From: Fodinibius sp. Rm-B-1B1-1
GTDB lineage: Bacteria > Bacteroidota > Rhodothermia > Balneolales > Balneolaceae
Reading direction: 5' to 3'
NCBI RefSeq assembly: GCF_038594945.1
Contig: NZ_JBCFYD010000002.1
Coordinates: 930,001-994,000 of the forward strand
DNA length: 64,000 nucleotides
Shown: positions 14,850-34,313 of the stretch, in pieces
Layout of the letters: each line of letters opens with the position of its first letter
How positions within the stretch are numbered: position 1 is the stretch's first letter
The notes under the pieces: model-generated
The model's input: the letters and a program-made list of their open reading frames with translations, nothing else
What the model was told of the DNA's origin: nothing
The model's database searches: none
Program-made: the position numbers and the translations under genes

Positions 14850-15842
14850 CTATTCTCCCATTAAAATAGCAACGCAGGCAGCGTTAACAATATCTTGCCA
14901 GTGGCAACCCCGTGAAAGATCCATCATAGGTTTAGCCAGCCCCTGCAGAATAGGGCCCGTTGCCGATGCCCCGGCCAACCGTTCGGTAATTTTATAAGCG
15001 ATGTTACCAGCATCTAAGTTAGGAAAAACAAACACGTTACCCTGCCCTTTTATAGGAGAGCCAGGTGCTTTGCGCTGAGCGATTTCGGGGACAAAAGCAG
15101 CATCAAACTGTAGTTCACCATCAACAGTTAGCTGTGGGGCTTTTTGTTGGATACGTTTTGTAGCTTTTACTACAAGCTCTGTTCGTTCGTGTTGAGCACT
15201 GCCTTTGGTCGAAAAGGAAAGCATTGCCACCTTGGATTCTTCTCGGGTCAACAATTTATGAGTACGGGCCGATTCAATAGCAATATCGGCCAGCTGTTCG
15301 ACATCCGGATATGGTACTACTCCACAATCGGCGTATGTTAGTGGCGGCTGTCCTTCGAGAGCCATCAAAAAAGTACTGGAAACCGTATTATTTCCTTGCC
15401 GAAGCCCAATGCTGTGAATGGCTGCACGGATAACGTCTCCAGTCGTGGCCATCGATCCAGCCACACAACCATCCGCCCTGTTGGTAGCCACCAGCGTCGC
15501 CCCCAAATACAATGGGTCGTTAAGTGCTTGCATAGCCTCATCTTTCGTAACCCCTTTATGCTTCCGCCGTTGATACAGGTAATCGATTAGCTCATCTTTG
15601 TCTTGCACAGTATTAGAGTTCAAATAACTGATTTCATCAGGAAGCACTACTCCTGACCGATGTGCTATATCGGCTATCTCCCTGTTGCTTCCGATGAGTT
15701 GGACATTACAAATCTGGTTCTGAATTAAAAAAACAGTGGCTTGTAATACTCGTGAATCACTCGACTCGGGGAATACAATGGTCTTGTTTTGTTTGGAAGC
15801 CCGTTCTCTGATCTGTTGAATAATATTAGTATTGGCACTCAT
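14850..15842 (-). CDS. pta: Phosphate acetyltransferase (PTA/PTB domain)
   Basis: A PTA/PTB catalytic domain of about 330 residues, starting at an ATG that overlaps the stop of the upstream EamA gene as ATGA. I prefer this start to an upstream in-frame ATG inside that gene. It interconverts acetyl-CoA and acetyl phosphate. Recognisable segments are TIVFPESSDSRVLQA, YLGATLVATNRADGCVAGS, the SSTFLMA stretch, AMLSFSTKGSA and the C-terminal GNVFVFPNLDAGNIAYK. It is the short form without the N-terminal regulatory domains. No ackA is visible, and its pairing with a DMT transporter is unusual. Confidence 0.92.
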   Translation of the reverse strand: MSANTNIIQQIRERASKQNKTIVFPESSDSRVLQATVFLIQNQICNVQLIGSNREIADIAHRSGVVLPDEISYLNSNTVQDKDELIDYLYQRRKHKGVTKDEAMQALNDPLYLGATLVATNRADGCVAGSMATTGDVIRAAIHSIGLRQGNNTVSSTFLMALEGQPPLTYADCGVVPYPDVEQLADIAIESARTHKLLTREESKVAMLSFSTKGSAQHERTELVVKATKRIQQKAPQLTVDGELQFDAAFVPEIAQRKAPGSPIKGQGNVFVFPNLDAGNIAYKITERLAGASATGPILQGLAKPMMDLSRGCHWQDIVNAACVAILMGE

Positions 15843-16696
15843 AATAATAGCGTTATGGCTATGATGGCAGCTCCGATGCCGGCCCATTGTTTCCTTGTTA
15901 CGGTATCATCCCAAATAAATAAGCCGAGCAGTGTGCCACCTAAAACATTTAAAATATTTACGACAGGATAAGCAACCGATCCGCTGATACCTCCCAATGC
16001 ATAAATTAAAAAAATAGAACTATACAAATTGGGGATTCCTATAGCTGTCCCTAAAATGGCTTCTTGCCTGGTGATAAGTTTTCCTTTTTGGAAAAGACTG
16101 ATCACCAATCCAATTACAAAAGCAGCCGTAAAAACTAAGCCCATAAACGTGAGTTCATTGAGGTTCGTACTAAACTCCTCCTCATAGATTTTTAGCGAAG
16201 CATCGGCAAAACCGGTAAGTACAAAAATACCAACCAATAACCACGAGGCACTTATAGATCCTATTTTGATATTATTTTTCTTGGGGATGAGTAATATCAT
16301 GGCACCAAAAACACCTATGATACCTATAATTTTGATGGCATTAAGATACTCGGCATACCAATAGATGGAAATGACAACGGGTACCAAAAGCGACAAGCGC
16401 ATAGCAGCAATAGTGATGCCGACCCCATTTGCATGGACTGATTTGCTGTAGGCTACAAAATTCCCGATAAAAAAGGCACCCACAACGGCACAGAATATAA
16501 GAAGTACAGTTATATGGGACGAGAGCGTTGCACTAAGCGCACCAGTGTATCCTACAAATAATGCAAAAACACCCGCCACCAAATAGTTGACAGTGAGTGT
16601 GTTGAGGGTTCGCAAGTTTCTACTTTCGGTAACTTTGAGCAGATGGGCAATAGTCAGAGAGCATATAGAACTTAACAGCAAGTACAAATATGCCAT
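15839..16696 (-). CDS. EamA/DMT-superfamily transporter
   Basis: 285 residues with about ten hydrophobic segments in two repeated halves, the pattern of drug/metabolite (DMT) transporters. Examples are the helix starting at residue 1, FCAVVGAFFIGNFVAYS, and the late helices around VAYPVVNILNVLGGTLLGLFIW. The C-terminus (KQWAGIGAAIIAITLLL) is typical for the family. Substrate unknown. The start overlaps the upstream gene as TAATG and the stop overlaps pta as ATGA, so it is tightly coupled on both sides. Confidence 0.85.
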   Translation of the reverse strand: MAYLYLLLSSICSLTIAHLLKVTESRNLRTLNTLTVNYLVAGVFALFVGYTGALSATLSSHITVLLIFCAVVGAFFIGNFVAYSKSVHANGVGITIAAMRLSLLVPVVISIYWYAEYLNAIKIIGIIGVFGAMILLIPKKNNIKIGSISASWLLVGIFVLTGFADASLKIYEEEFSTNLNELTFMGLVFTAAFVIGLVISLFQKGKLITRQEAILGTAIGIPNLYSSIFLIYALGGISGSVAYPVVNILNVLGGTLLGLFIWDDTVTRKQWAGIGAAIIAITLLL

Positions 16697-18447
16697 TATT
16701 CACTGACTATATTAAGTTGAGTATTGCCGAATAGCAGCGGTGATTGAGGGCGGTCGTAAAGTTTGCGTGATGTGTACGAGACATTTCGCTCAAGGTATTG
16801 ATAGATATCAGAAATAGTCGTTCGGCGTTCTTGCAGGGCTCGGGCAAAGAAATATGGGAAAATATGATGCATTTTTTCCACACCTTGCGACATATACAAG
16901 CCAGACACGTTGTTGAGTCGGGCTCCAAACAGAATAGAACTATTCGGATGGGCATCAGTTAATGGCGAAACCGTATACTCCATGATTTTCTGTTGCTGAT
17001 TTTCTGGTGTTCTACCCTTCTGATTGCTTGCCGAGAAATCGATGTCGCTAAGGACAATAGTCTTCGCTGATGATACCTTTCCAATTTCGCTAAATATACT
17101 ACGCAGCGATATGGTTGAGTCAGTTTTGGCTTCTGACGGAACAGTTAACAGCTGCAGTTCATTAGCACTATTTTGTGTTTCGATGGTTCCATACCCACTG
17201 AAATAGACAAAGAATTCGGTGCTGTCATTAGCACTTTCTTGGATGGATGAAAGTACCGTATTAAGCGTATCACTGTCGGGGATATCAGCTAACTGGTGAA
17301 TATCTTCTTCCTTATATCCCAAAGCATTTTCCAAGTAACTTCGAATGAGTCGGCCATCCCGAAAGGCAAAATTGCGTGTGTTTAGCGGCTCTTCGTAATT
17401 TTGATTTACAACCAGTAATGCCTTAGCATTATTATTCTGCTGATTTAGTACAGGGATATTGCTTTCAACATCCACATTGCCAAAAGGTACGCGGGGTACG
17501 GCAACCTGATCTTCTATCGTATAATCTTCGGATCGCCAGATGATATCAGCAGAAGATTTTTTGATATAGGTTTCTGATATGCCATACAATACTTGATACC
17601 ATTCGTCATTAATGTTATTGATCTTCAATTCGCTGCCCTCTACAAGATCTGCCAGTACATTATCGTCATTCTCATTAGCACTGCTTCGTAAGGCTGTTAG
17701 TTGATCATTAACTACAGCATAAGGCTGCAAGACAGATTCTATAGGATATTCATATTGATAAAGGGAATCGGCAAACAAAACCTCAACCGTTACACTACCG
17801 GGGTTAGCACCGGATAAATTTAGATCCTCAAGAGCATCTCCTACAGGAATATTGAGCTTGCCGTTTGATAATTGTTGATTGTTATCTTCAAAAATAATCA
17901 GATCATTGTAGAGCATATAAACCGATGCCGTAGTATCAATAGAACTATTGGCTGGCATGGTATCAATTTCTGTTGTAGTACCAGTACTCCGAAGGTACCG
18001 TTCTTCACCGGTGGGTTGTGGATCACCTACGGCTTTCATATTTAAAAAGCCTGAAGCAAGCATTAATGCGCCCATTCCATTTAAGGTCCATCTTTTGGTA
18101 GAGGTGTCATGACCAAAATCAGTTGCATTGGCCAGATAAAATGCCATGGTGGCCCCTCCTATCCCTAAAGCAACCGATCCCCATCGCAATTGATAATCTT
18201 GTATGGTTCGCTGTACCAAAACCCGTTGCGGATATTCATATTCCGTTTTAGTAAATAATTCAAGACTCAGGACAGGATTTCCAGAATTTATTTCTCCACT
18301 TTGCTGTAAGAAATAATTTTCCCGAACAATTTCAGATTCTGAATGGTCGACAGACTGTTTTTCCTGCACAGTCCATCGAGCACTGGTACACGAACCCAAA
18401 AAGCCCGATAACATACATATGATCGCTATGTAAAAATATGCTTTCAA
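16696..18447 (-). CDS. Lipoprotein with SH3-like and caspase-like domain lacking the catalytic dyad
   Basis: 583 residues. A lipoprotein signal (MLSGFLGSC, Cys near residue 20) is followed by a beta-rich region, an SH3-like segment (about 250-305, with EWYQVLYG) and a C-terminal caspase-fold region from about 335. Its landmarks align with C14-type peptidases: KALLVVNQNYEEPL, FAFRDGRLIRSYLENALGY, FFVYFSGYG and the tail PYFFARALQERRTTISDIYQYL...RPQSPLLFGN. The catalytic His of the usual SGHG is Tyr here (SGYG, near 418), and the Cys of DACFSG is Asp (DIDFSAS, near 469). The domain is therefore predicted to be proteolytically dead. It sits five bases after the Omp85-like barrel gene, so a shared envelope role is inferred. 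Confidence 0.8.
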   Translation of the reverse strand: MKAYFYIAIICMLSGFLGSCTSARWTVQEKQSVDHSESEIVRENYFLQQSGEINSGNPVLSLELFTKTEYEYPQRVLVQRTIQDYQLRWGSVALGIGGATMAFYLANATDFGHDTSTKRWTLNGMGALMLASGFLNMKAVGDPQPTGEERYLRSTGTTTEIDTMPANSSIDTTASVYMLYNDLIIFEDNNQQLSNGKLNIPVGDALEDLNLSGANPGSVTVEVLFADSLYQYEYPIESVLQPYAVVNDQLTALRSSANENDDNVLADLVEGSELKINNINDEWYQVLYGISETYIKKSSADIIWRSEDYTIEDQVAVPRVPFGNVDVESNIPVLNQQNNNAKALLVVNQNYEEPLNTRNFAFRDGRLIRSYLENALGYKEEDIHQLADIPDSDTLNTVLSSIQESANDSTEFFVYFSGYGTIETQNSANELQLLTVPSEAKTDSTISLRSIFSEIGKVSSAKTIVLSDIDFSASNQKGRTPENQQQKIMEYTVSPLTDAHPNSSILFGARLNNVSGLYMSQGVEKMHHIFPYFFARALQERRTTISDIYQYLERNVSYTSRKLYDRPQSPLLFGNTQLNIVSE

Positions 18448-18452
18448 CCTTC

Positions 18453-19697
18453 TTAAAGTGATATTGTTGCGCCAATGCCAAAGAGCTGACGAAATTTGAA
18501 TGATTCTTCATTTCCGGGATGCGAAAGCCAAAGAGGTAAGTCATATCGCAACACCAGACCTCGGCTTTTACCTAAATAATCAGGAATATCCACCGAAAAT
18601 AAAAAGCCCAGTCCAGAATCAGAGAGTACCCTGCTCTCTTCAAAGCGGCTTATACCTAAGGATGTTCCGGCATCGAAAAATACATACGAGCGAAGATCAA
18701 TAAGTCCGCCTATAACCGGGATATTTTTTAACGCTTTTGCAGCAGGATTTGGATAATTGAGTTCCATATTAACAGTCGAAAGTGATGTGTAAAGCGGTGC
18801 TGTACCATTATTCAGGGACTGAATATCATTCTTTAGATAGCCTCGCAAGTTAGGGCCACCGGTAACCTGTATGTTTCCAATTTGCATCCAAGATGGTGGT
18901 ATCGTACCTCGTGCCCTTGTTAATCCACTGTTCATCCATTTTCGTGGAGAACGAAAGCTACGGGTGAAAAGGTATTCCGGTGCAGTATTATTACTGGCAA
19001 TGCCAGTGTATAGTCGCCCAAATAACGAAAAACGTTCTGATAGGTTAACTTGCTGTCGAAGTATAGCGGCACTCCGCAAAAAGGAATCGGCTTCTCCTCC
19101 TAAGTTAATATCAGCAGAAAAAGAGAGTGCATATCGTCCAAGCCCATTCACATTGGTGAGATCTAAGGTGGCATTGGCCAAATATAACCATTGGTTTTGC
19201 CACAGTTGTTGGTATAGCAAATAGTCAGAGTTAAAGCGATCTTCTGCTCGAACTCCTATTGCTAACTCCTTGTAGTTCAATTCATTAAATCCGGTTTGCC
19301 AACGTTTATTAAAGGTGATGCCATGTTGTTGAAATCCAGTTCGGTATAGGCTCTCTAATGAGATGCTTCCTTCGCTCCCAAAATCTGAAATAGAGGGAAT
19401 GGGTTCGGTAAAGCGCAGGTAATATGATACAGGATGAGTGGGAATATTTGTGCCCAGCCAAAGTCCAGCATTAAGTCGATGGGGACCATCGCCAAACGTG
19501 CCGGGAATCTGCCCTCGGACTCGTACTCCTGTCCTAACCCCATCCACGCTATTGTACCAAATATCAGGAGCTGGAAGAAGTTCATACGAGGAATCTTCTT
19601 GGGCTAAGGATTCATTGGGGACTGTAAATCCAATAAACAATAATATAATAGCTATTGCCCAGTGGCGATAAAAGTTTGCTACGATGCTATGATCCAC
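18453..19697 (-). CDS. Omp85-like outer-membrane beta-barrel protein without POTRA domains
   Basis: About 414 residues. A signal peptide (HWAIAIILLFIGFTVPNESLAQ) leads directly into amphipathic beta-strands. The segment GPNLRGYLKND matches the conserved RGY/RGF loop-6 motif of Omp85 barrels. The end of the protein has the family-like VNMELNYPN...YVFFDAGTSLG and a final strand ending in GATISL. No POTRA repeats are visible. I chose GTG at 19697, which overlaps the nudix stop by 19 bases and gives a clean signal peptide. An ATG at 19766 would put 23 unlikely residues in front. Its downstream partner is the inactive caspase-like lipoprotein. Confidence 0.7.
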   Translation of the reverse strand: MDHSIVANFYRHWAIAIILLFIGFTVPNESLAQEDSSYELLPAPDIWYNSVDGVRTGVRVRGQIPGTFGDGPHRLNAGLWLGTNIPTHPVSYYLRFTEPIPSISDFGSEGSISLESLYRTGFQQHGITFNKRWQTGFNELNYKELAIGVRAEDRFNSDYLLYQQLWQNQWLYLANATLDLTNVNGLGRYALSFSADINLGGEADSFLRSAAILRQQVNLSERFSLFGRLYTGIASNNTAPEYLFTRSFRSPRKWMNSGLTRARGTIPPSWMQIGNIQVTGGPNLRGYLKNDIQSLNNGTAPLYTSLSTVNMELNYPNPAAKALKNIPVIGGLIDLRSYVFFDAGTSLGISRFEESRVLSDSGLGFLFSVDIPDYLGKSRGLVLRYDLPLWLSHPGNEESFKFRQLFGIGATISL

Positions 19698-20128
19698 TCC
19701 TCTAAAATTTGATTTGATGTTACAATATCTGCTAATAAGTTCATCAGCCGTTTCTGTTCCGGCCATTGAATATAGGTATCTATCTTATCTTGGGAAATCC
19801 ATTTCCAATCTTCATGCTCGTGATTTAATACGATGTTAGCATTTTTGTCGACTTCTGCTCCAAAAGCAGGAATCTGCTTTACGGCATCGCTTTTCATATC
19901 ATAAAATTGATTTATGGATGGAAGCACCCAAAATAGTGTAGGTTTTAAATTCGTTTCTTCGCAAAGTTCCCGAACCCCTGCTTCAAAAGCTGTTTCATCT
20001 TGTTGAACTTTTCCTCCAACCATCCGCCATTGTCCGCCGTATATAACATTATGAGTACGTTTTAAAATAAGGAATTTCACCTCATTACTTACGTAGCTAT
20101 AGGGATAAACATCAATAAGGCGTTTCAT
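19679..20128 (-). CDS. Nudix hydrolase
   Basis: 149 residues. The Nudix box spans about residues 39-60 and follows GX5EX7REUXEE: Gly39, Glu45, Arg53, Glu54, Glu57 and Glu58 are all present. The position usually occupied by the last Gly is Asn60. The preceding HNVIYGGQWRMVGGKV and following VLPSINQFYDM resemble NTP or dihydroneopterin-triphosphate pyrophosphohydrolases, but the substrate is not assignable. It follows the UDP-xylose synthase gene by 12 bases. Confidence 0.88.
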   Translation of the reverse strand: MKRLIDVYPYSYVSNEVKFLILKRTHNVIYGGQWRMVGGKVQQDETAFEAGVRELCEETNLKPTLFWVLPSINQFYDMKSDAVKQIPAFGAEVDKNANIVLNHEHEDWKWISQDKIDTYIQWPEQKRLMNLLADIVTSNQILEEWIIAS

Positions 20129-25915: not shown

Positions 25916-28900
25916 CTATTTAATGAGTACCATTTTTTTTGTTTGGACCTTCTGCCCCACAATTAATCGATAAAAATAGGTACCACTGGCTAACCGGCTA
26001 CCATTAAATCTTATTTTGTGCCATCCGGCTTTCATCGATCCATTGACAAGCGTTTGAACCTTTTGTCCCAGAATATTATACACTTCCAGGATCACATCAC
26101 TCTGCTTTTCAATGCCAAACTGTATTGTCGTGGTGAGATTAAAAGGATTTGGATAATTCTTATTGAGCTTAACTTGTTCTGGAAGCATATTCTCCTGAAC
26201 CTCTTTGAGTTCGTCAACCGATCCGGTGTAAACCTCAAATTGTTTACGACCCTTTGCGGCCATAAAGGTATAGGACTCCCCATCGCTGAGTATTTTGGAG
26301 CGTCCCTTGTCTGGCTCGATAACTAATACCGCCATCTCTGTAGTAAATCCTGATATGTTGGGTGACCATTCAATTTTCTTGCGTGTGGTAGCTTTTATTT
26401 CCACAGTGTATTGTTTACGGTCACGGTCATAGGTATCTCCTATAGTATGCAGCATCTTTTCACGTGCTGATTTCTGCTCATCCACAATTGTGGCACCGAA
26501 CTTGCTCAGCTTTAATGGTGGCATATACTGCGTATAGGCTTTCCGCTGATCAACATCCTGGTCATATATCATATGTACCCGGGCTGGTTGCTTACTATCT
26601 TCAATGTGGATATCCAGTGCTATCTCCCCTGACAGTGATTTTGATTTAGCAAGCTGTTTCTGCTCTTCATTGTTTGTTCGTTTTTCGAGACTGGTATAGG
26701 GTATTTCGAGCTCCAGATTTTGGTCATTATCATTGTGCACGTAGTAGGCATGGAATGGAGCCAGTTCATCACTTTCAAAGAAGCTTTCCTCATACCCGAA
26801 GAGCATAATATTTTGCTGGTTATAGATCTGCACCTGTTCCCATTTGATGACGCTTCCAAAAGGATTGGTGATAATATTCCATCCCGGTTTTAAGTTAAGG
26901 GAGTAAGTATCTTCTTCTGAAATTTGAACGGGATCAATATTTCCCCCCAACGTAATCGGCTTTTCGCTTAGCACCCAATAGCCCCTACCTTCAGTAAAGC
27001 TGAAGGGGTTGTCACTGGAGTATTCTTCAAGATAATTTTTAGCATTGCCATTATCCGAAAAAACTTTCCAATCAGTACCATATTCCCCGTCAAAAAGTTC
27101 GTCAACTGATACTTCTTTACGACCGGGTAACCCTACTAACCGATAATCATTAGCACGTAAACTACGTTCATTGCCGGAATTATTCCCGTCCCCAAAAGTA
27201 ATTTGTTCTTCTTGTATATTGTTTTTGGGTGGAATGCGTGTCATGAATGTTCGAACCTTGCTATAGGGACTTGTAGTAAGATTATTTTCAATTCGAACCT
27301 GCCAAAAATATTCGGTCTCAGTATCAAGTCCCTGGAGGTTTAGTGATACTCCTTCTACAAGAGTATCCAGCACAATTGATTGTAGCTGATTATCGGTACC
27401 CAGCTGGACACGATATGTACTCTTTTCTTGCTGAGATTGCCAAGAGAGTTCCGGAGCAATACTTATCTGTTCTTCATTGTTAGCGGGAAATGATAACTCA
27501 GGAGCAGCAGCGGTAGTTACAAAACGCCATGACTCGGCCCATGGCCCACTACCAGCGCTATTGATTCCACGAACCCGCCAATAGTAGACTCTATTGTTAT
27601 TGAGGTAGCCATCCAGGGAAAAGTCAGCGGAGGTAAGTCCCTTCTCTTGAACTTTGATTTCAGAAAAATGTTCATCGGTAGCAATTTCGATTTCATAAGA
27701 ATCGGCTTCATCCAGTGATTCCCATGTAAGTGTTCCATCAAGAGTAATACTGCCACTTTCATTACTGGGACTACTAAGCGTAACTTGTGGTGGAAGAACG
27801 GGGAGAGTCGCAAACTGATACTTTGACGACCACTCCCCATTTCCACCCGCGTTTGTACCACGTACACGCCAGTAGTAGCTGGCCTCTCTGTCTAATTTTT
27901 CATCAATCTGTAGATTGGGTTTGGTAATACTGGTTTTACTAATAATGATTTCATCCTTCTCAAAGGAGTTTTCAGTAGCCAACTGTATTTCGTAGGTATC
28001 AATGTCTGATTGTGACTTCCACTCCAAGGTGGGCGTTACCGAAACATCTTCGGTCTTATCTTTGGGGGCAGTTAGTACAATCTTTTCAGGAACCTTAATA
28101 TCAACAGTAACATCAAACGTTAAATGATATCGTTTACTACCATCACTTGCTACTAAGGTAACCGTAGCTGTACCGTTTTTACCGGGGTTGGGCTGAAGCT
28201 CAATAGTACGGTCAGAACCACTTCCTGTTAATGCAAGATTTTGATCTGGAAACAATGATTGATTATCGGATGTTGCCGTGACATCTATCTTTGAAAGGTC
28301 GGTATTGGGATCGCTGACGGAGTAGCTTACCGAAAGAGAAGCCCCATCTTTGGTAACCGTTTGATCATCAATGTCAGAAAGAATGGGGCCGTCATTGGTG
28401 AGGAAACGAGTTCTGGTATCTTGTTTTTCATCCTGGACATCGATGTACACATCCTTAATACCATCCGCTTTAATGATGATATCATCAGATCCCCCAAAGC
28501 CGTTTTGAGAAACATCGATTTCGAGCTGACCATTATTTTTACGTACAGTGCCGGGATAAGACAAGCCGGTATAACCTTTGAGCAATACTGAATTTCCTTC
28601 AGCTATATCCGTAATGGTATCTCCGTTTAATTCAGATTCGGAACCAATAACCTCATCAGCACCATCACCCAGCGTGATCGTATCGACACCTTCGCCCGGA
28701 CGAATAATATCATCACCAAGGCCGCCGTCTAACTCCTCGTCAGCATTACGTCCATTGAGAATATCATTCCCTGCTCCACCCTCAATAATACCGGTAATTA
28801 TCCCTGATTCAGCGGTAAAGGTATCATCTCCATCGCCCAGGTTAACAGCTATACCGCTGCCTCCGGTAATATCGCCCCTGTTAGTTACCGTATGATTGGC

Positions 28901-31900
28901 ACTGCCCAGCTGTAAGGCAACATTAGCTGAACTTTCGAGCGTACCGCCGGACTCATTGACCAGCGTACCGCTGATGGTTCCATCAATACGCAGGGCATTT
29001 CCTACAGAGGTCATGGTTCCCGAATTGGTGACATCTCCATCAACCTCTTGTGCAAGATAAACCCCGTAACTGTCGGCGGAAATGGTACCGCTGTTTATAA
29101 AGTTACCGTCTACAGACGTCCTGATATCGAAACCCACAGCCGCTCCCGCCATAGTACCAGTATTAATAATATCTCCAGCAATAGTAGAAGCATTATCTAT
29201 AAGAATGAGCTGATTTTTCGGCGCTCCGTAGTCGTTCCTAATGAGTCCGTTGTTTTCAAAGCCGTTGGCAAGGGTGGTATTTTGAATGTAGAAAGCCAGC
29301 GTCGGATCAACGGAACTACCCTGCCCCTGCTTCAAATCACCGTTATTGATAATTTTCTCAAATGAGCTGCCGTCAGCACTGAAAATATAGGCCCCGTTGG
29401 TACCCGTGCGTGTTACACCGGATGCCACTTCCAGCACAGCATTGACCTGCCGCGGCTTGCCGGATACAAAGATCTGTTCCGAGGATGTTTGCGGCTCTTC
29501 TATGCGGATGGTATCACGGCTGCTGGATTCCACTTGTGCCAGCCCAATGGCCTCATATACATCCAGTCCGCCGCCATCAGCTCGTTCTTCTGCTTCCGAT
29601 TTACCGTCAAACGAGTCCTGCGAATCCCCGTCTACGACGAATGTTTCCGCAATATCATTGATCGTAACATCGGCTGATTCACTGGCCGTAAGTCCGACAT
29701 CATCGGTGGCCTCAATTGTCAGCGTTACCGAATTACCACCCTCATAATCAACATCGGCCGCGTCATCCACCGTAATTTCTCCAGTGTTAGAATCGATGGC
29801 AAAAGCGGCAGTGCCATCGCTGTTATAATCGGGATTGCCGCCCGTAATATCGAAGGTAACGTTATTATCGGCTGCACCGCCATCTCCGTCGGTGGCATCG
29901 ATATCTGCAATAGCTGTTCCGGCAGAGCTATGTTCATCAATACTTACCGAAATAGGACCGGAAACAAAAGACGGCGGACCGTTGGGTGTTGCCTCATACA
30001 CCCCCATGTCTACCGTGCCACCACGGGTGCGGGCATTGCCGGCAATATCGGTAGAAATGCCCGAAAAAATAGCATCGTTATCTCCGGCGTCTATAGCAGG
30101 TGAAACAGGCTGCAAAACGAGTCCATCATCAGCGGTAAACCAGGTACCATCAGCCCCGGCAGGATTAGAGGCATCTACAAACTGAGGATTAGCGTCGATG
30201 TTGGTGCTATTCGCAAAAGACACCGAATTGCCATTTTCATCGAGATAGGTTGTTTCATCTCCTAAAAAGTTATATACACCTGCTGTACCACTTTCAATGA
30301 GCGAATGGTGGACAGAGAGTGAAATCTCTTGATTATGAATGTGATTCCCATTCCTCTCAGCATGATTGTCGTAAAAAATGGTGTTAGAAATTGCAGTGTT
30401 TGTGTCTGTACCTTGATTTGAAATAGCTCCACCATCTCCATTTGGCCCAGAGGCTCGGTTGTTAATAAATACGCTATTTATGATCAATAGCTCAACAGAC
30501 GCATCTCCACCACTCATTTTAATTGCACCACCTTCACTATATTCTTCTGATACATTATTACTATAAAAAATGGTATTACTGATAATAGAACTACTTGTCC
30601 TATTTATATAAATGGCTCCACCATGACCATATGATCCAATAGCAGTATTCCCCTTAAAGATGAGTCTGTTTAATGTAGGACTACATTCACTACCAGATCC
30701 CACACCCTCACAAAAAAGTCCACCACCGTGTTTTTCGGGATCATTCCCCTTCGCCTGTCCCGCGGTTACGGTAAGCCCGTCAAAAAGCGTGGTATTGGTT
30801 ATAGAACCATTGCTATCACCATCTATAAACAGCACATGATTGCTATTGGTGCCATTAATATGGTCCGTTCCACTAAAGGTATTGGAGTCGCCATCACTAT
30901 CAGTATTGGGGGCAAAGGGATCATCATCCTGGGCAATATCACCAGACAGAATAGTACGATGGCCCGAAATGTCGCGGTCGCTCAGCTGGGTTTCCGTTCC
31001 GTCGAAGCCGCCGTATATTTTGAGTCCATCCTGATCGCCGGTAATAGTGAAATAGGCTGTTTCGTCATTGGCAGTCACATTAGTGCCCTCATCGGGGTAA
31101 TAGATACCCTCGGCGATCCAGATTTGGTCTTCGCCGCCGGCGGCAGCTAAGGCATCCTGTAGATACTGAAAGGCGTTATTCCACGAAGAGCCGTTGTTGG
31201 AACCCGTGGCATTTCTATTCACATAAAAAGTTTCGGCTACCGGGTTTACCGTTATAGTAAAGGAATCGTCCATGGTCTGGTCGCCGCTATCTTCGGCACG
31301 GATAGTGATATTAGCCGTCCCAGACTGGTTGGAGTGATAATCGAGGGTGAGCTGATCCGTGCTGTTATCCACAGAGGCATTGACCAGGCCGCTGTTATCA
31401 TTGCCCTGCACCGAGAAGGTGAGATCGGAGCTGTTGTCTTCGGGATCAGAAAAAACATTAGTCAGATCATAAGTTTCATTAGCGGCGTCTTCATCTACGG
31501 TAAGATCGGAGATAGCATTGGCGACCGTGGGTGATTCATTCACATCAGTCACGGTGATGGTAATATGTTGATCTGTGTAGCCGTCTCCGTCGCCAGCTGT
31601 TACCTCCAGCTCATAATTGTTATCAGCATTATTGTCATTGGGATTTTCAAAATCGCCCGGCACATCCAAGGAAATTTCGCCGGTCGTAGAATTAATTTGG
31701 AATAATGGCGCATCGCCTCCACCGGTAAAGTTGTAATTGATATTGACATCATTGCCCCCACCGTCGCCATCATTGGCATTAACATCCAGCACAATGCCTG
31801 TGAAATTTTCATCAACGGTTGCGGATGAACTTGAAGTAAAAACCGGCGGATTGCTTGCGACCGTACTTTCATATACGCCCATATCAACGGTGTTGCCCCG

Positions 31901-33691
31901 GATACGGGTATTTCCGGCAATATCGGTGTTTATTCCCGATGGAATTGCATCATTGTCTCCGGCATTGATAGCAGGGGAACTTGCTTGAAGGCTAAACCCA
32001 TCGTCATCAGTAAACCACATTCCGTCAACTCCGCCGGGATTGGAGGTATTTACAAACTGGGGATTGGCATCAATATTTCCGCCCCCATCGGTACCCAAAT
32101 CACTATTCCAGTTTGAACTACCGCCCGAGCCCTCGATAAGAGAATGGCTAATAGTGGCAGTAGCCATGGTCATGTTGTAAATATTATTATTCCCTCCGTT
32201 GGCAACGTTTTCATAGAAAATAGTATTGGTGATGACAGGTTTAGCATTTAGGCCGTCGTTAAAGATGGCTCCCCCATTACCATTTTGCCCTGATACCCGG
32301 TTGGCGACAAATATCGTATTTGTGACCGTCGGATTATTTTCGGAAAAATTGGTCATAGCTCCCCCCTTTCCATATTCTCCCGATGTACTATTTCTATAAA
32401 AAATAGTGTTATTGATAATTAAATTTTTTGCACCTGAATTATATATTGCTCCACCATTCCCATAGGGTTCAATTGCAGTATTTCCTACAAAAATGAGCCT
32501 GTTTAAGGTGGGACTGCATTCGCTGCTTGCCCCTTCCCCCCAACAAAGAAGCCCCCCACCGTGTTTTTCGGGATCATTACCCTTCGCCTGTCCCGCGGTC
32601 ACGGTAAGCCCGTCAAAAAGCGTAGCATTCGTTATAGAATCGTTGCTATCACCATCAATAAATAATACATGGTTGCTGTTGGTACCGTTAATATGATCGG
32701 TGCCACTAAACGTATCAGGATCACCATCGCTGTCTGTATTGGGGGCAAAAGGATCATCATCCTGGGCAATATCACCAGATAAAATGGTACGGTGGCCCGA
32801 AATATCGCGCTGGTCGAGTTGGCTTTCCGTGCCGTCAAATCCGCCATAAATCTTGAGTCCGTCCTGATCACCGGTGATGGTAAAACTGGCGTTTTGATCT
32901 CCCTCGGACACATTGGTACCCTCATCGGGATAATAGGTGCCTTCGGCGATCCAGATTTGATCGTTATCGGTGGCTTGGTCCAGAGCATTTTGCAGAGAGG
33001 TGTAGGCGTTGGCCCAAGAAGTGCCGTTGTTGGCGCCGGTGGCATCGGTATCCACATAAATAGTAGTGGGACCCGCATTAGCATCTTGTATAATCAGTGA
33101 CATATTGTCAAAAAACACATTATGGAAAGTCGCATCCCCGCTGTCATTTTGATCTTCGTTTTGGGAATGAAGGCGTAGCCGTACTGAACGGGTGCCGGAA
33201 GGCACCGTACGCGAATCACTCACCTGTTGCCATGCTCCGTCGGATTCGAGAAAACCGGAATCAAAACTCTCTATATCCGTATTACTGCCATCCAAAAATG
33301 TAACGGTAAACTTGCCTTTATCGGCATCTAAAGAGTTGGTCCGAAGCCAGCCACTGAAATCAACAGTTGCATCGCCCGCATCTATACTGCCAGCCCAACC
33401 CGATACATCTACTGTCTGTTCTATATAGGTAGCCAAATTATTGGATGAGTTTTCAAAAAACATGATACTCCCGCTCTGGGCATCCGGGGTAAAGCTTTTT
33501 GTTTGACTCACCTCATCGAAAGCTCCGCCTGTCGAATTTATCCAATCTCCTTCAAGAGTCCCGTCTAAAGAACCACTACCATCTTCGGCCCCTCTGTTCG
33601 TCAGCAGTTGGGTTTGGCCCCAGGCCGAAATAGGAAGTAGAAGGACAATGAAAAGGACATATTTTAGGATGTGGTTTCCCATGAATTTCAT
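25916..33691 (-). CDS. Giant mosaic secreted protein, adhesin-like, with T9SS type A sorting domain
   Basis: 2591 residues. Signal peptide (1-25), jelly-roll-like region (to about 205), Pmp-like beta-helix module 1 (about 210-612) with GGAI/GGAM and FxxN motifs, two cadherin-like domains (to about 815), beta-helix module 2 (about 818-1235), another cadherin-like domain, and a Gly/Asn-rich beta-solenoid. An RTX-type calcium-binding stretch (GGAGNDIL, GGLGDDII; near 1620-1685) follows, then an Ig-like domain. Three fibronectin III-like domains (about 1867-2155) each contain YYWRV/YFWQV. A C-terminal type A sorting domain from about 2510 has NYPNPFN, VYNILGQKV, SGTYFYRL and a final KKMVLIK. The sorting domain predicts export through the type 9 system to the surface. 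Adhesion is inferred from the domains. Modules 1 and 2 are a recent internal duplication at DNA level. Confidence 0.85.
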   Translation of the reverse strand: MKFMGNHILKYVLFIVLLLPISAWGQTQLLTNRGAEDGSGSLDGTLEGDWINSTGGAFDEVSQTKSFTPDAQSGSIMFFENSSNNLATYIEQTVDVSGWAGSIDAGDATVDFSGWLRTNSLDADKGKFTVTFLDGSNTDIESFDSGFLESDGAWQQVSDSRTVPSGTRSVRLRLHSQNEDQNDSGDATFHNVFFDNMSLIIQDANAGPTTIYVDTDATGANNGTSWANAYTSLQNALDQATDNDQIWIAEGTYYPDEGTNVSEGDQNASFTITGDQDGLKIYGGFDGTESQLDQRDISGHRTILSGDIAQDDDPFAPNTDSDGDPDTFSGTDHINGTNSNHVLFIDGDSNDSITNATLFDGLTVTAGQAKGNDPEKHGGGLLCWGEGASSECSPTLNRLIFVGNTAIEPYGNGGAIYNSGAKNLIINNTIFYRNSTSGEYGKGGAMTNFSENNPTVTNTIFVANRVSGQNGNGGAIFNDGLNAKPVITNTIFYENVANGGNNNIYNMTMATATISHSLIEGSGGSSNWNSDLGTDGGGNIDANPQFVNTSNPGGVDGMWFTDDDGFSLQASSPAINAGDNDAIPSGINTDIAGNTRIRGNTVDMGVYESTVASNPPVFTSSSSATVDENFTGIVLDVNANDGDGGGNDVNINYNFTGGGDAPLFQINSTTGEISLDVPGDFENPNDNNADNNYELEVTAGDGDGYTDQHITITVTDVNESPTVANAISDLTVDEDAANETYDLTNVFSDPEDNSSDLTFSVQGNDNSGLVNASVDNSTDQLTLDYHSNQSGTANITIRAEDSGDQTMDDSFTITVNPVAETFYVNRNATGSNNGSSWNNAFQYLQDALAAAGGEDQIWIAEGIYYPDEGTNVTANDETAYFTITGDQDGLKIYGGFDGTETQLSDRDISGHRTILSGDIAQDDDPFAPNTDSDGDSNTFSGTDHINGTNSNHVLFIDGDSNGSITNTTLFDGLTVTAGQAKGNDPEKHGGGLFCEGVGSGSECSPTLNRLIFKGNTAIGSYGHGGAIYINRTSSSIISNTIFYSNNVSEEYSEGGAIKMSGGDASVELLIINSVFINNRASGPNGDGGAISNQGTDTNTAISNTIFYDNHAERNGNHIHNQEISLSVHHSLIESGTAGVYNFLGDETTYLDENGNSVSFANSTNIDANPQFVDASNPAGADGTWFTADDGLVLQPVSPAIDAGDNDAIFSGISTDIAGNARTRGGTVDMGVYEATPNGPPSFVSGPISVSIDEHSSAGTAIADIDATDGDGGAADNNVTFDITGGNPDYNSDGTAAFAIDSNTGEITVDDAADVDYEGGNSVTLTIEATDDVGLTASESADVTINDIAETFVVDGDSQDSFDGKSEAEERADGGGLDVYEAIGLAQVESSSRDTIRIEEPQTSSEQIFVSGKPRQVNAVLEVASGVTRTGTNGAYIFSADGSSFEKIINNGDLKQGQGSSVDPTLAFYIQNTTLANGFENNGLIRNDYGAPKNQLILIDNASTIAGDIINTGTMAGAAVGFDIRTSVDGNFINSGTISADSYGVYLAQEVDGDVTNSGTMTSVGNALRIDGTISGTLVNESGGTLESSANVALQLGSANHTVTNRGDITGGSGIAVNLGDGDDTFTAESGIITGIIEGGAGNDILNGRNADEELDGGLGDDIIRPGEGVDTITLGDGADEVIGSESELNGDTITDIAEGNSVLLKGYTGLSYPGTVRKNNGQLEIDVSQNGFGGSDDIIIKADGIKDVYIDVQDEKQDTRTRFLTNDGPILSDIDDQTVTKDGASLSVSYSVSDPNTDLSKIDVTATSDNQSLFPDQNLALTGSGSDRTIELQPNPGKNGTATVTLVASDGSKRYHLTFDVTVDIKVPEKIVLTAPKDKTEDVSVTPTLEWKSQSDIDTYEIQLATENSFEKDEIIISKTSITKPNLQIDEKLDREASYYWRVRGTNAGGNGEWSSKYQFATLPVLPPQVTLSSPSNESGSITLDGTLTWESLDEADSYEIEIATDEHFSEIKVQEKGLTSADFSLDGYLNNNRVYYWRVRGINSAGSGPWAESWRFVTTAAAPELSFPANNEEQISIAPELSWQSQQEKSTYRVQLGTDNQLQSIVLDTLVEGVSLNLQGLDTETEYFWQVRIENNLTTSPYSKVRTFMTRIPPKNNIQEEQITFGDGNNSGNERSLRANDYRLVGLPGRKEVSVDELFDGEYGTDWKVFSDNGNAKNYLEEYSSDNPFSFTEGRGYWVLSEKPITLGGNIDPVQISEEDTYSLNLKPGWNIITNPFGSVIKWEQVQIYNQQNIMLFGYEESFFESDELAPFHAYYVHNDNDQNLELEIPYTSLEKRTNNEEQKQLAKSKSLSGEIALDIHIEDSKQPARVHMIYDQDVDQRKAYTQYMPPLKLSKFGATIVDEQKSAREKMLHTIGDTYDRDRKQYTVEIKATTRKKIEWSPNISGFTTEMAVLVIEPDKGRSKILSDGESYTFMAAKGRKQFEVYTGSVDELKEVQENMLPEQVKLNKNYPNPFNLTTTIQFGIEKQSDVILEVYNILGQKVQTLVNGSMKAGWHKIRFNGSRLASGTYFYRLIVGQKVQTKKMVLIK
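29985..31235 (-). repeat. Beta-helix module, second copy of a duplicated block
   Basis: This block encodes residues about 818-1235 of the giant protein and repeats the block at 31855-33061 in the same orientation. The most similar part is about 30725-31120 against 32559-32940, nearly identical by eye. Shared peptide landmarks are DISGHRTILSGDIAQDDDPF and TLFDGLTVTAGQAKGNDPEK. Both copies encode three GGA(I/M) and four FxxN motifs. Confidence 0.8.
31855..33061 (-). repeat. Beta-helix module, first copy of a duplicated block
   Basis: This block encodes residues about 210-612 and is the partner of the repeat at 29985-31235. The start-to-start offset is roughly 1.83 kb, with two cadherin-like domains between the copies. 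The flanks of the two copies diverge much more than the core, consistent with duplication followed by exchange of the variable GGA(I/M) rungs. Confidence 0.8.
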
Positions 33692-33713: not shown

Positions 33714-34313
33714 TTATTGGTCTTTTTGTGCCGAAGGGTAATGCCCTCTAAAACAGATGATATAGTTTAGTCCCTGGTAGGGTTGTCGGTTAGGAATAGG
33801 TTCACTTTTCCCCGTCTGACCAATGGTTACTTCAATTGAACCCGAAATACTATCGTTGTTCAGTGTTGAATTGCCGGAACTGCTGTGATAGGCTCTCACA
33901 TCATGCGTTGTCTCTCGGCTTTCCTGAAAGTAGTTCTTGGCTAAATAATTGTCTTTGGGATTTATTTGATTGCCTTGTTCTTCATTTACGGTAATTTGTA
34001 GCTTAGAGGTAGCTGTGGCGCCATGAGTATGGGGCGGAAGTTGTGGAGGCGTTAGCCGGTTTTGTTCTTTACCACCGGTTTGCCCAAGCTTTATTTGATC
34101 GAAGTCTGATCCTTTTCCTACCCCTACTGGAACCCTTCCTCGTAAGTCCGGTAGTTTAAAATTCTTCTCTCCGTCTCCCCCATACGTACTTCCTACTACA
34201 GCAAAAAGGGATTCGTAATTGCTTATCTGTAATGTTTGTCCATGGCAAGGGGCCCAATTTTTAGGGATATCTTTGCCTGCAAAAAGTCGTATTTCTCCTA
34301 CAGTTCCGTCCAT
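33714..34313 (-). CDS. Tail-collar domain protein (microcystin-dependent/phage tail fibre tip family)
   Basis: 199 residues. The N-terminal tail-collar domain shows GEIRLFAGKDIPKNWAPCHG, an SNYESLFAVVGSTYGGDG core and FKLPDLRGRVPVGVG. The middle has PPHTHGATA, and the C-terminus ends PYQGLNYIICFRG, as in phage tail-fibre tips and MdpB-type proteins. No signal peptide or phage neighbours are present. It starts the three-gene unit, 22 bases before the giant protein. Whether it is a trimeric fibre tip, a chaperone or a domesticated lectin cannot be told from sequence. Confidence 0.85.
   Translation of the reverse strand: MDGTVGEIRLFAGKDIPKNWAPCHGQTLQISNYESLFAVVGSTYGGDGEKNFKLPDLRGRVPVGVGKGSDFDQIKLGQTGGKEQNRLTPPQLPPHTHGATATSKLQITVNEEQGNQINPKDNYLAKNYFQESRETTHDVRAYHSSSGNSTLNNDSISGSIEVTIGQTGKSEPIPNRQPYQGLNYIICFRGHYPSAQKDQ

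Follow-up and report, generated by a model that had tools for sequence, protein, structure and literature searches.

Background

The closest described relatives of the protein analysed here are the pseudo-orthocaspases, prokaryotic caspase homologues that have p20 homology and in which one or both catalytic residues are replaced. In the survey of Klemencic et al. 2019 (PMC6426788), 858 of 9,994 bacterial orthocaspases were such pseudo-variants, with 10 of 1078 in Bacteroidetes; 90% of the pseudo-orthocaspases came from Alphaproteobacteria and Cyanobacteria, and the main groups were tied to phototrophs. According to the same source these proteins retain both Asp residues of the S1 pocket, which in a type I metacaspase accommodate basic residues, and the dyad pairs named in the available part of it are YS, YN, YA, FS, YY, QC and HA. 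One pseudo-orthocaspase is SyOC of Synechocystis, whose knock-out tolerates more oxidative stress (PMC7889975). Sequences without the dyad were discarded during the profile building of Asplund-Samuelsson et al. (PMC3501461).

The window, which is the whole stretch of 64,000 nucleotides that was analysed, comes from Fodinibius sp. Rm-B-1B1-1; the genus Fodinibius is placed in the Balneolaceae, Balneolota (PMC9909488). The first-pass annotation of this DNA had read one of its genes as a lipoprotein with a caspase fold in which both catalytic residues are replaced. We refer to this protein as the pseudocaspase. It shows p20 homology with the catalytic residues replaced, and it has counterparts of the two S1-pocket Asp residues, specifically Asp468 and, through a weak pairwise alignment to metacaspase 9, Asp364. 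It resembles the pseudo-orthocaspases (PMC6426788) in being prokaryotic, in its replaced dyad, in the Tyr at the His site, which is common among them, and in the S1 Asp residues that are kept. However, the Asp at its Cys site is not among the dyad pairs named in the part of that survey considered here, and a lipid-anchor signal, a stalk and an SH3b-like domain precede its caspase domain. SyOC is described as lacking p10, whereas the fold predicted for the pseudocaspase spans the p10-equivalent part, and the available description of SyOC (PMC7889975) mentions no lipid anchor, in contrast to the lipobox found here.

Regarding other known groups, the pseudocaspase shares with the active C14 peptidases the caspase fold, on the predicted model, but not the His-Cys dyad. 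The only NCBIfam match was the EACC1-associated caspase (NF047832), with 30.3 bits, far under the cut-off of 140 bits. Some homologues of the same phylum (L047, L137, L188-L194) form the nearest outgroup on the tree and their caspase domain can be aligned; nevertheless, their His-Cys dyad is intact, and their matches to the family profile begin only at about residue 312, so that they have no such stalk. A literature search on caspases and Balneolota gave no paper on the pseudocaspase among the matches listed. As far as these searches reach, the pseudocaspase represents a new lineage and a new architecture of the pseudo-orthocaspase kind.

Results and discussion

Gene and domain organisation

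The features of the locus are collected in Table 1. The TTG start lies five bases past the stop of the barrel gene, and TTG was also the start chosen by a script rule for the close relatives L002-L004. The lipobox was recognised by eye; it agrees with the lipoprotein assignment of the first-pass annotation, and lipidation of the protein is expected at its Cys.

Table 1. Features of the pseudocaspase locus, in window positions
Feature	Position	Strand	Basis or remark
Phosphate acetyltransferase Pta	14850..15887	-	profile matches
EamA-type transporter	15839..16696	-	Pfam EamA, 39.9 bits
Pseudo-caspase lipoprotein CDS	16696..18447	-	TTG start, 583 aa
Caspase-fold domain, residues 335-583	16699..17445	-	Pfam, AlphaFold, Foldseek, VIA
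Asp470 at the catalytic Cys site	17038..17040	-	alignment of 94 orthologues
Asp468, in the place of the S1-pocket Asp that precedes the Cys by two residues	17044..17046	-	D 92/94, E 2/94
Tyr419 at the catalytic His site	17191..17193	-	alignment of 94 orthologues
Asp364, which probably corresponds to the second Asp of the S1 pocket	17356..17358	-	weak metacaspase 9 alignment (E 0.26); D 31/44
SH3b-like domain, residues 241-305	17533..17727	-	Pfam SH3_3 in 6/44 orthologues; strands in model
Stalk at the N-terminus, residues 22-240, with a long beta-hairpin and a beta domain that is at best Ig-like	17728..18384	-	AlphaFold model 1-240, pLDDT 91.1
Weakly hydrophobic helix 116-135, second of the hairpin	18043..18102	-	model; best Kyte-Doolittle window 1.07
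Weakly hydrophobic helix 89-107, first of the hairpin	18127..18183	-	model; Kyte-Doolittle maximum 1.16 (19-residue window)
Signal peptide with lipobox FLGSC, Cys20 putatively lipidated	18388..18447	-	Cys20 in 44/44 rows
Barrel protein, putatively of the outer membrane and with no POTRA found	18453..19766	-	437 aa, profile comparison
NUDIX hydrolase	19679..20128	-	Pfam NUDIX, 54.1 bits

In the alignment of 44 orthologues 11 residues are invariant. Six of them belong to the anchor and the stalk (Cys20, Trp25, Arg80, Gln83, Tyr85 and Glu148), Trp283 lies in the SH3b-like domain, Glu328 in the linker, and Asp468, Arg561 and Gln568 in the caspase domain. Thus, the old active site holds few invariant residues and, Asp468 excepted, most of them are found elsewhere.

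Predicted fold of the caspase domain and the stalk

Pfam Peptidase_C14 matched the pseudocaspase with 24.3 bits, above its gathering score of 21.4. This match covers only positions 3-87 of the 233 of the profile and reaches no further than the SGYG motif; 25 of the 44 orthologues were matched at E<=0.01. A comparison of the sequence with the PDB gave no significant chain, the best being metacaspase-9 with E 0.26. The full-length AlphaFold model, built from the 44-row alignment, had a mean pLDDT of 88.9 and a pTM of 0.52, and because of this pTM the mutual placement of the domains is uncertain. Nevertheless, the model of residues 335-583 matches caspases across the whole domain: Foldseek gave E 5.1e-10 to MALT1, and VIA aligned 221 residues with Arabidopsis metacaspase 4 at 3.0 A (Z 21.8). 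The alignment with caspases extends over both the p20 and the p10 ranges, this being a structure match. On the model, therefore, residues 335-583 are a complete caspase fold; the first-pass annotation had proposed a caspase fold from the recognisable fold-defining regions.

The stalk, modelled as residues 1-240, consists in part of two very long predicted strands (59-87 and 137-165) linked by the two helices of Table 1. No PDB chain was found for it at E<=0.001, and the best VIA match was Ig/MG-like, with a Z of 7.9 that falls in the range which the tool calls uninformative. Long-hairpin pore proteins stood at the top of the Foldseek list, but with E 0.006 and TM 0.11, and we give no weight to them as relatives of the stalk. 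The usual Kyte-Doolittle threshold for a membrane helix is 1.6, and the best windows of both helices fall below this value; since the helices are so weakly hydrophobic, we consider insertion of the helix hairpin into the membrane as possible and no more. Residues 241-305 we take to be an SH3b-like domain, although SH3_3 was detected in some of the orthologues and not in the window protein itself.

The PADLOC models for anti-phage defence gave only Csx19, with E 0.017 over residues 21-77, and we rejected a role as a defence caspase or as part of a defence system, there being no further match.

State and history of the catalytic dyad

The SGHG motif of active homologues is SGYG here (residues 417-420) and DACFSG is DIDFSAS (from residue 468), so that both members of the dyad are replaced, as had been noticed from the sequence at first, and the distance between the two sites is 51 residues. 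We aligned 95 orthologous caspase domains, after dropping L001 and L031, which are the same gene as that of the window, and the fragments of genomes G074 and G082. A further fragment with a gap at both sites (L045) was left out of the counts, which leaves 94 rows. The Cys site was D in 60 rows, E in 18, Q in 6, S in 4, F in 2 and I, H, N and M in one each, and Cys was found in none. The His site was Y in 49 rows, F in 23, H in 12, S in 5, and five single others, which include K, Q, I, V and D. All the 12 rows with His belong to the family f3, and every f3 row with letters at this site has His. Thus, an intact His-Cys dyad was found in 0 of the 94 orthologues. The suggestion that both substitutions are fixed stands for the Cys, which is absent throughout, but not for the His, which f3 keeps.

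Among caspase homologues outside the family, the dyad was intact in all 21 that were checked, specifically 11 of the 15 non-family matches in the class and 10 of the 44 outside it, two of the 21 (L137 and L138) being nearly the same sequence. Because these homologues show His and Cys in the same kind of alignment, the motif columns are correctly placed. We see no substitute dyad either, because no His or Cys is conserved at >=80% in the caspase domain of the 44 orthologues. Regarding the S1 pocket, the Asp364 column has Thr or Ser in 12 of the 44 rows.

The careful tree had 71 rows, among them 61 of the 95 rows of the family, with a nearer outgroup and the two catalytic columns removed. In it the pseudocaspase family forms a single clade with support 100/100, in which Cys changed once and His twice, and the long-branched L046 of f2 joins the family on a branch of 3.06. 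In the quick tree, with 105 rows and a more distant outgroup, L046 falls among the outgroup and the family is not one clade; the counts there were three His changes and two Cys changes. The simplest story would be that the Cys was lost first and the His later, in at least two lineages. By tree counts, a single loss of His with regain in f3 has the same cost as its retention. Nevertheless, retention is favoured, because f3 keeps the GHG or GHA context and the outgroup has His. Extant relatives thus show an intermediate state, with His kept and Cys gone, and a finished state with both gone, and therefore proteins that exist today allow the passage from a protease to a binding protein to be tested.

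Some relatives (L047:556-3132, L137 and L138) have a separate caspase with an intact dyad, whose domain is close to that of the pseudocaspase family. Elsewhere in the phylum, L188, L189, L190 and L193 bear homologues with an intact dyad that are about 590 aa long and differ in their N-terminal region, and L188 has two caspase genes within one stretch.

Distribution and selection

We searched 217 genomes of the class and 392 genomes drawn from the phylum. Profile matches were found in 102 of the 217 class genomes, 97 of them inside the order surveyed, which we infer to be the Balneolales. An orthologue was present in 96 of the 112 genomes of this order, including the two fragments of G074 and G082, and this is therefore another order, one where a lipoprotein that contains a dead caspase is widely kept. 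None of these 96 genomes has a second full-length copy. Outside the order, neither the class nor the phylum search gave full-length matches, and those obtained there start at about query residue 312. The nearest named record was that of Aliifodinibius salipaludis, with 67% identity; MAGs and species of Fodinibius came next.

The pseudocaspase is missing in all 11 f4 genomes, in the small f1 genomes G025, G031 and G106, in G110 and in G013, which has a caspase-domain match elsewhere only that was not counted as an orthologue. Because it is absent from all the f4 genomes and missing at the G013 locus, it is dispensable in some lineages.

Regarding selection, in 20 close pairs (dS 0.02-1.2) the median dN/dS was 0.10 for the stalk, 0.05 for the SH3b-like domain and around 0.12 for the caspase domain, and in 19 pairs it was 0.20 for the catalytic loops; the pairs are not independent, and the medians include the pair L014-L042, with ratios from 0.78 to 1.71 that are probably due to saturation. 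No listed match of the pseudocaspase has internal stops. These ratios point to strong purifying selection, which, the caspase domain included, argues for a pseudoenzyme that is kept, and they indicate that, within a retained domain, the former active site is less constrained than the rest. In this respect the initial idea of an inactive homologue has held up, and the inactive form is conserved.

Proposed function

The reading that we find the most convincing as a whole, and consider reasonably probable, is that the pseudocaspase is a membrane-tethered and proteolytically dead pseudoenzyme which acts by binding or as a scaffold. Binding rather than cutting is probable because most of the order keeps the dead form. 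With the lipid on Cys20 and the hairpin-bearing stalk as its anchor, the protein would present both its SH3b-like domain and its dead caspase domain at the envelope of the cell. The latter domain would keep, together with its fold, an acidic pocket of S1 type formed by Asp364 and Asp468, plus Asp470 in the place of the nucleophile, and it would bind a peptide or protein partner instead of cleaving it. Such a partner might present a basic residue to the pocket. Such a basic ligand, though possible, would not be general, because Asp364 is kept in only 31 of the 44 orthologues, and the idea of a reader of basic residues as the general function is weakened by the same count.

Gene neighbourhood and the barrel protein

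The main alternative is an obligate envelope complex of the pseudocaspase with the adjacent barrel protein; an envelope complex had been suggested by the first-pass annotation from the lipid anchor and the position of the two genes. We examined the gene order at 95 loci, looking for eight kinds of genes, although some loci are limited by contig ends. The barrel gene is directly 5' of the pseudocaspase in 45 loci and one gene off, in the order barrel-ackA-pseudocaspase, in 31; in 10 loci ackA is directly 5' without the barrel, and 9 have other arrangements. EamA was found at 73 loci and pta at 76, whereas the complete set nudix-barrel-ackA-pseudocaspase-EamA-pta was found at 18 of the 95, and this set may be ancestral. 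Full-length matches of the barrel family, like those of the pseudocaspase, were found in the order only.

This shared neighbourhood is what speaks for a complex. However, the genes also occur separately: over the 112 genomes, both were present in 86, the pseudocaspase alone in 10, the barrel alone in 12 and neither in 4 (Fisher p 0.11), where the test counts by genome and ignores kinship and where one of the ten, G082, has only a fragment of the pseudocaspase. Specifically, none of the six g5 genomes searched has the barrel, although each has the pseudocaspase, 10 of the 11 f4 genomes have the barrel alone, and the G013 locus keeps nudix-barrel-EamA-pta with the pseudocaspase missing. Since the genes of the neighbourhood are lost independently, an obligate complex is not supported and we regard it as unlikely. 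The common neighbourhood is real, but these counts show no common fate of the pseudocaspase and its neighbours.

The barrel protein had been called Omp85-like at first sight. Against pooled Omp85 barrels, hhalign gave a probability of 93.5%, with 0.6% for the control; against three Omp85 subgroups taken singly it gave 0.2%, 20.3% and 4.0%, and all these Omp85 profiles were built from the Omp85 proteins of this same order. Among 36 members of the barrel family Pfam gave no Omp85 match, only one marginal and unrelated match; the barrel protein of the window had no Pfam match whatever, and no POTRA domains were found in it. Comparison of the family sequence with the PDB gave no chain. At the profile level, therefore, the barrel can be called Omp85-like but not Omp85, because the pooled profiles come from the same order and the scores of the subgroups are low.

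In genome G023 (L155:7766-10454) the barrel gene occurs twice in tandem, the second copy being more diverged. Six f4 loci (L147-L150, L156 and L157) keep nudix-barrel and have there no pseudocaspase, ackA or pta; L148 and L157 also keep EamA, and some f4 genomes have ackA beside pta elsewhere.

Other explanations

A more elaborate reading, distinctly improbable in our opinion, takes the pseudocaspase as the periplasmic head of an outer-membrane assembly with multiple subunits. In such an assembly the Gly/Ala-rich helix hairpins, standing on the long conserved beta-hairpins, would form a helical ring in the membrane, and the dead caspase and SH3b-like domains would recruit cargo or cell wall beneath it. 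If this were true, the caspase fold would serve as a building element in a machine of the envelope.

Caspase domains pair, and c-FLIP modulates caspase-8. The pseudocaspase could in the same way modulate an active caspase in its own cell, and the VIA matches include one chain of the entry for the caspase-8:c-FLIP complex. However, the window genome has no second Peptidase_C14 match even at E<=10, and other caspase homologues were found in at least 10 of the 112 order genomes, with one more in G022, this being a lower bound as the search missed known orthologues, including the window's own gene. Because the window genome has no other match and few genomes of the order have one, we consider such a role very unlikely as a general function. 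It also follows that a phenotype in the window genome would hardly come from the regulation of an active partner.

Little can be said for a caspase domain with retained enzymatic activity, in which Tyr or His together with Asp would form a substitute for the catalytic pair. The Cys site is acidic (D or E) in 78 of the 94 orthologues, and f3 keeps its His; nevertheless, neither site is conserved, as the Cys site may also be Q, S, F, I, H, N or M and the His site F, S, K, Q, I, V or D, and dN/dS is higher in the catalytic loops than in the rest. We think that this is highly improbable.

We give as little credit to a function in acetate or acetyl-phosphate metabolism through AckA-Pta. It is suggested by the gene order, as the pseudocaspase sits between ackA and pta in many relatives (ackA is next 5' in 41 of the 95 loci, and pta was present in the 76 loci mentioned above). 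However, over the 112 genomes the pseudocaspase and Pta were both present in 81, the pseudocaspase alone in 15, Pta alone in 12 and neither in 4 (Fisher p 0.47, again counted by genome with kinship ignored). Furthermore, Pta was not matched in four genomes of the genus to which the window belongs, and the window genome has no AckA. The co-occurrence counts thus removed this functional tie. With pta kept and no ackA match, the window genome (G000; window 14850-16696) has an orphan Pta.

Finally, that the caspase domain is a decaying relic would agree with the lost dyad and the lesser constraint on the loops, but it is contradicted by its low dN/dS and by the lack of stops inside any listed match, and is the least credible reading of all.

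Regarding the rest of the window, no RNA elements were found at the gathering score between 13000 and 22000, and the promoter and terminator scan gave counts close to those of shuffles. At 25916-33691 a gene encodes a 2591-aa protein with cadherin and fn3 domains and a type IX secretion sorting tail, and the adjoining gene, at 33714-34313, encodes a phage tail collar domain.
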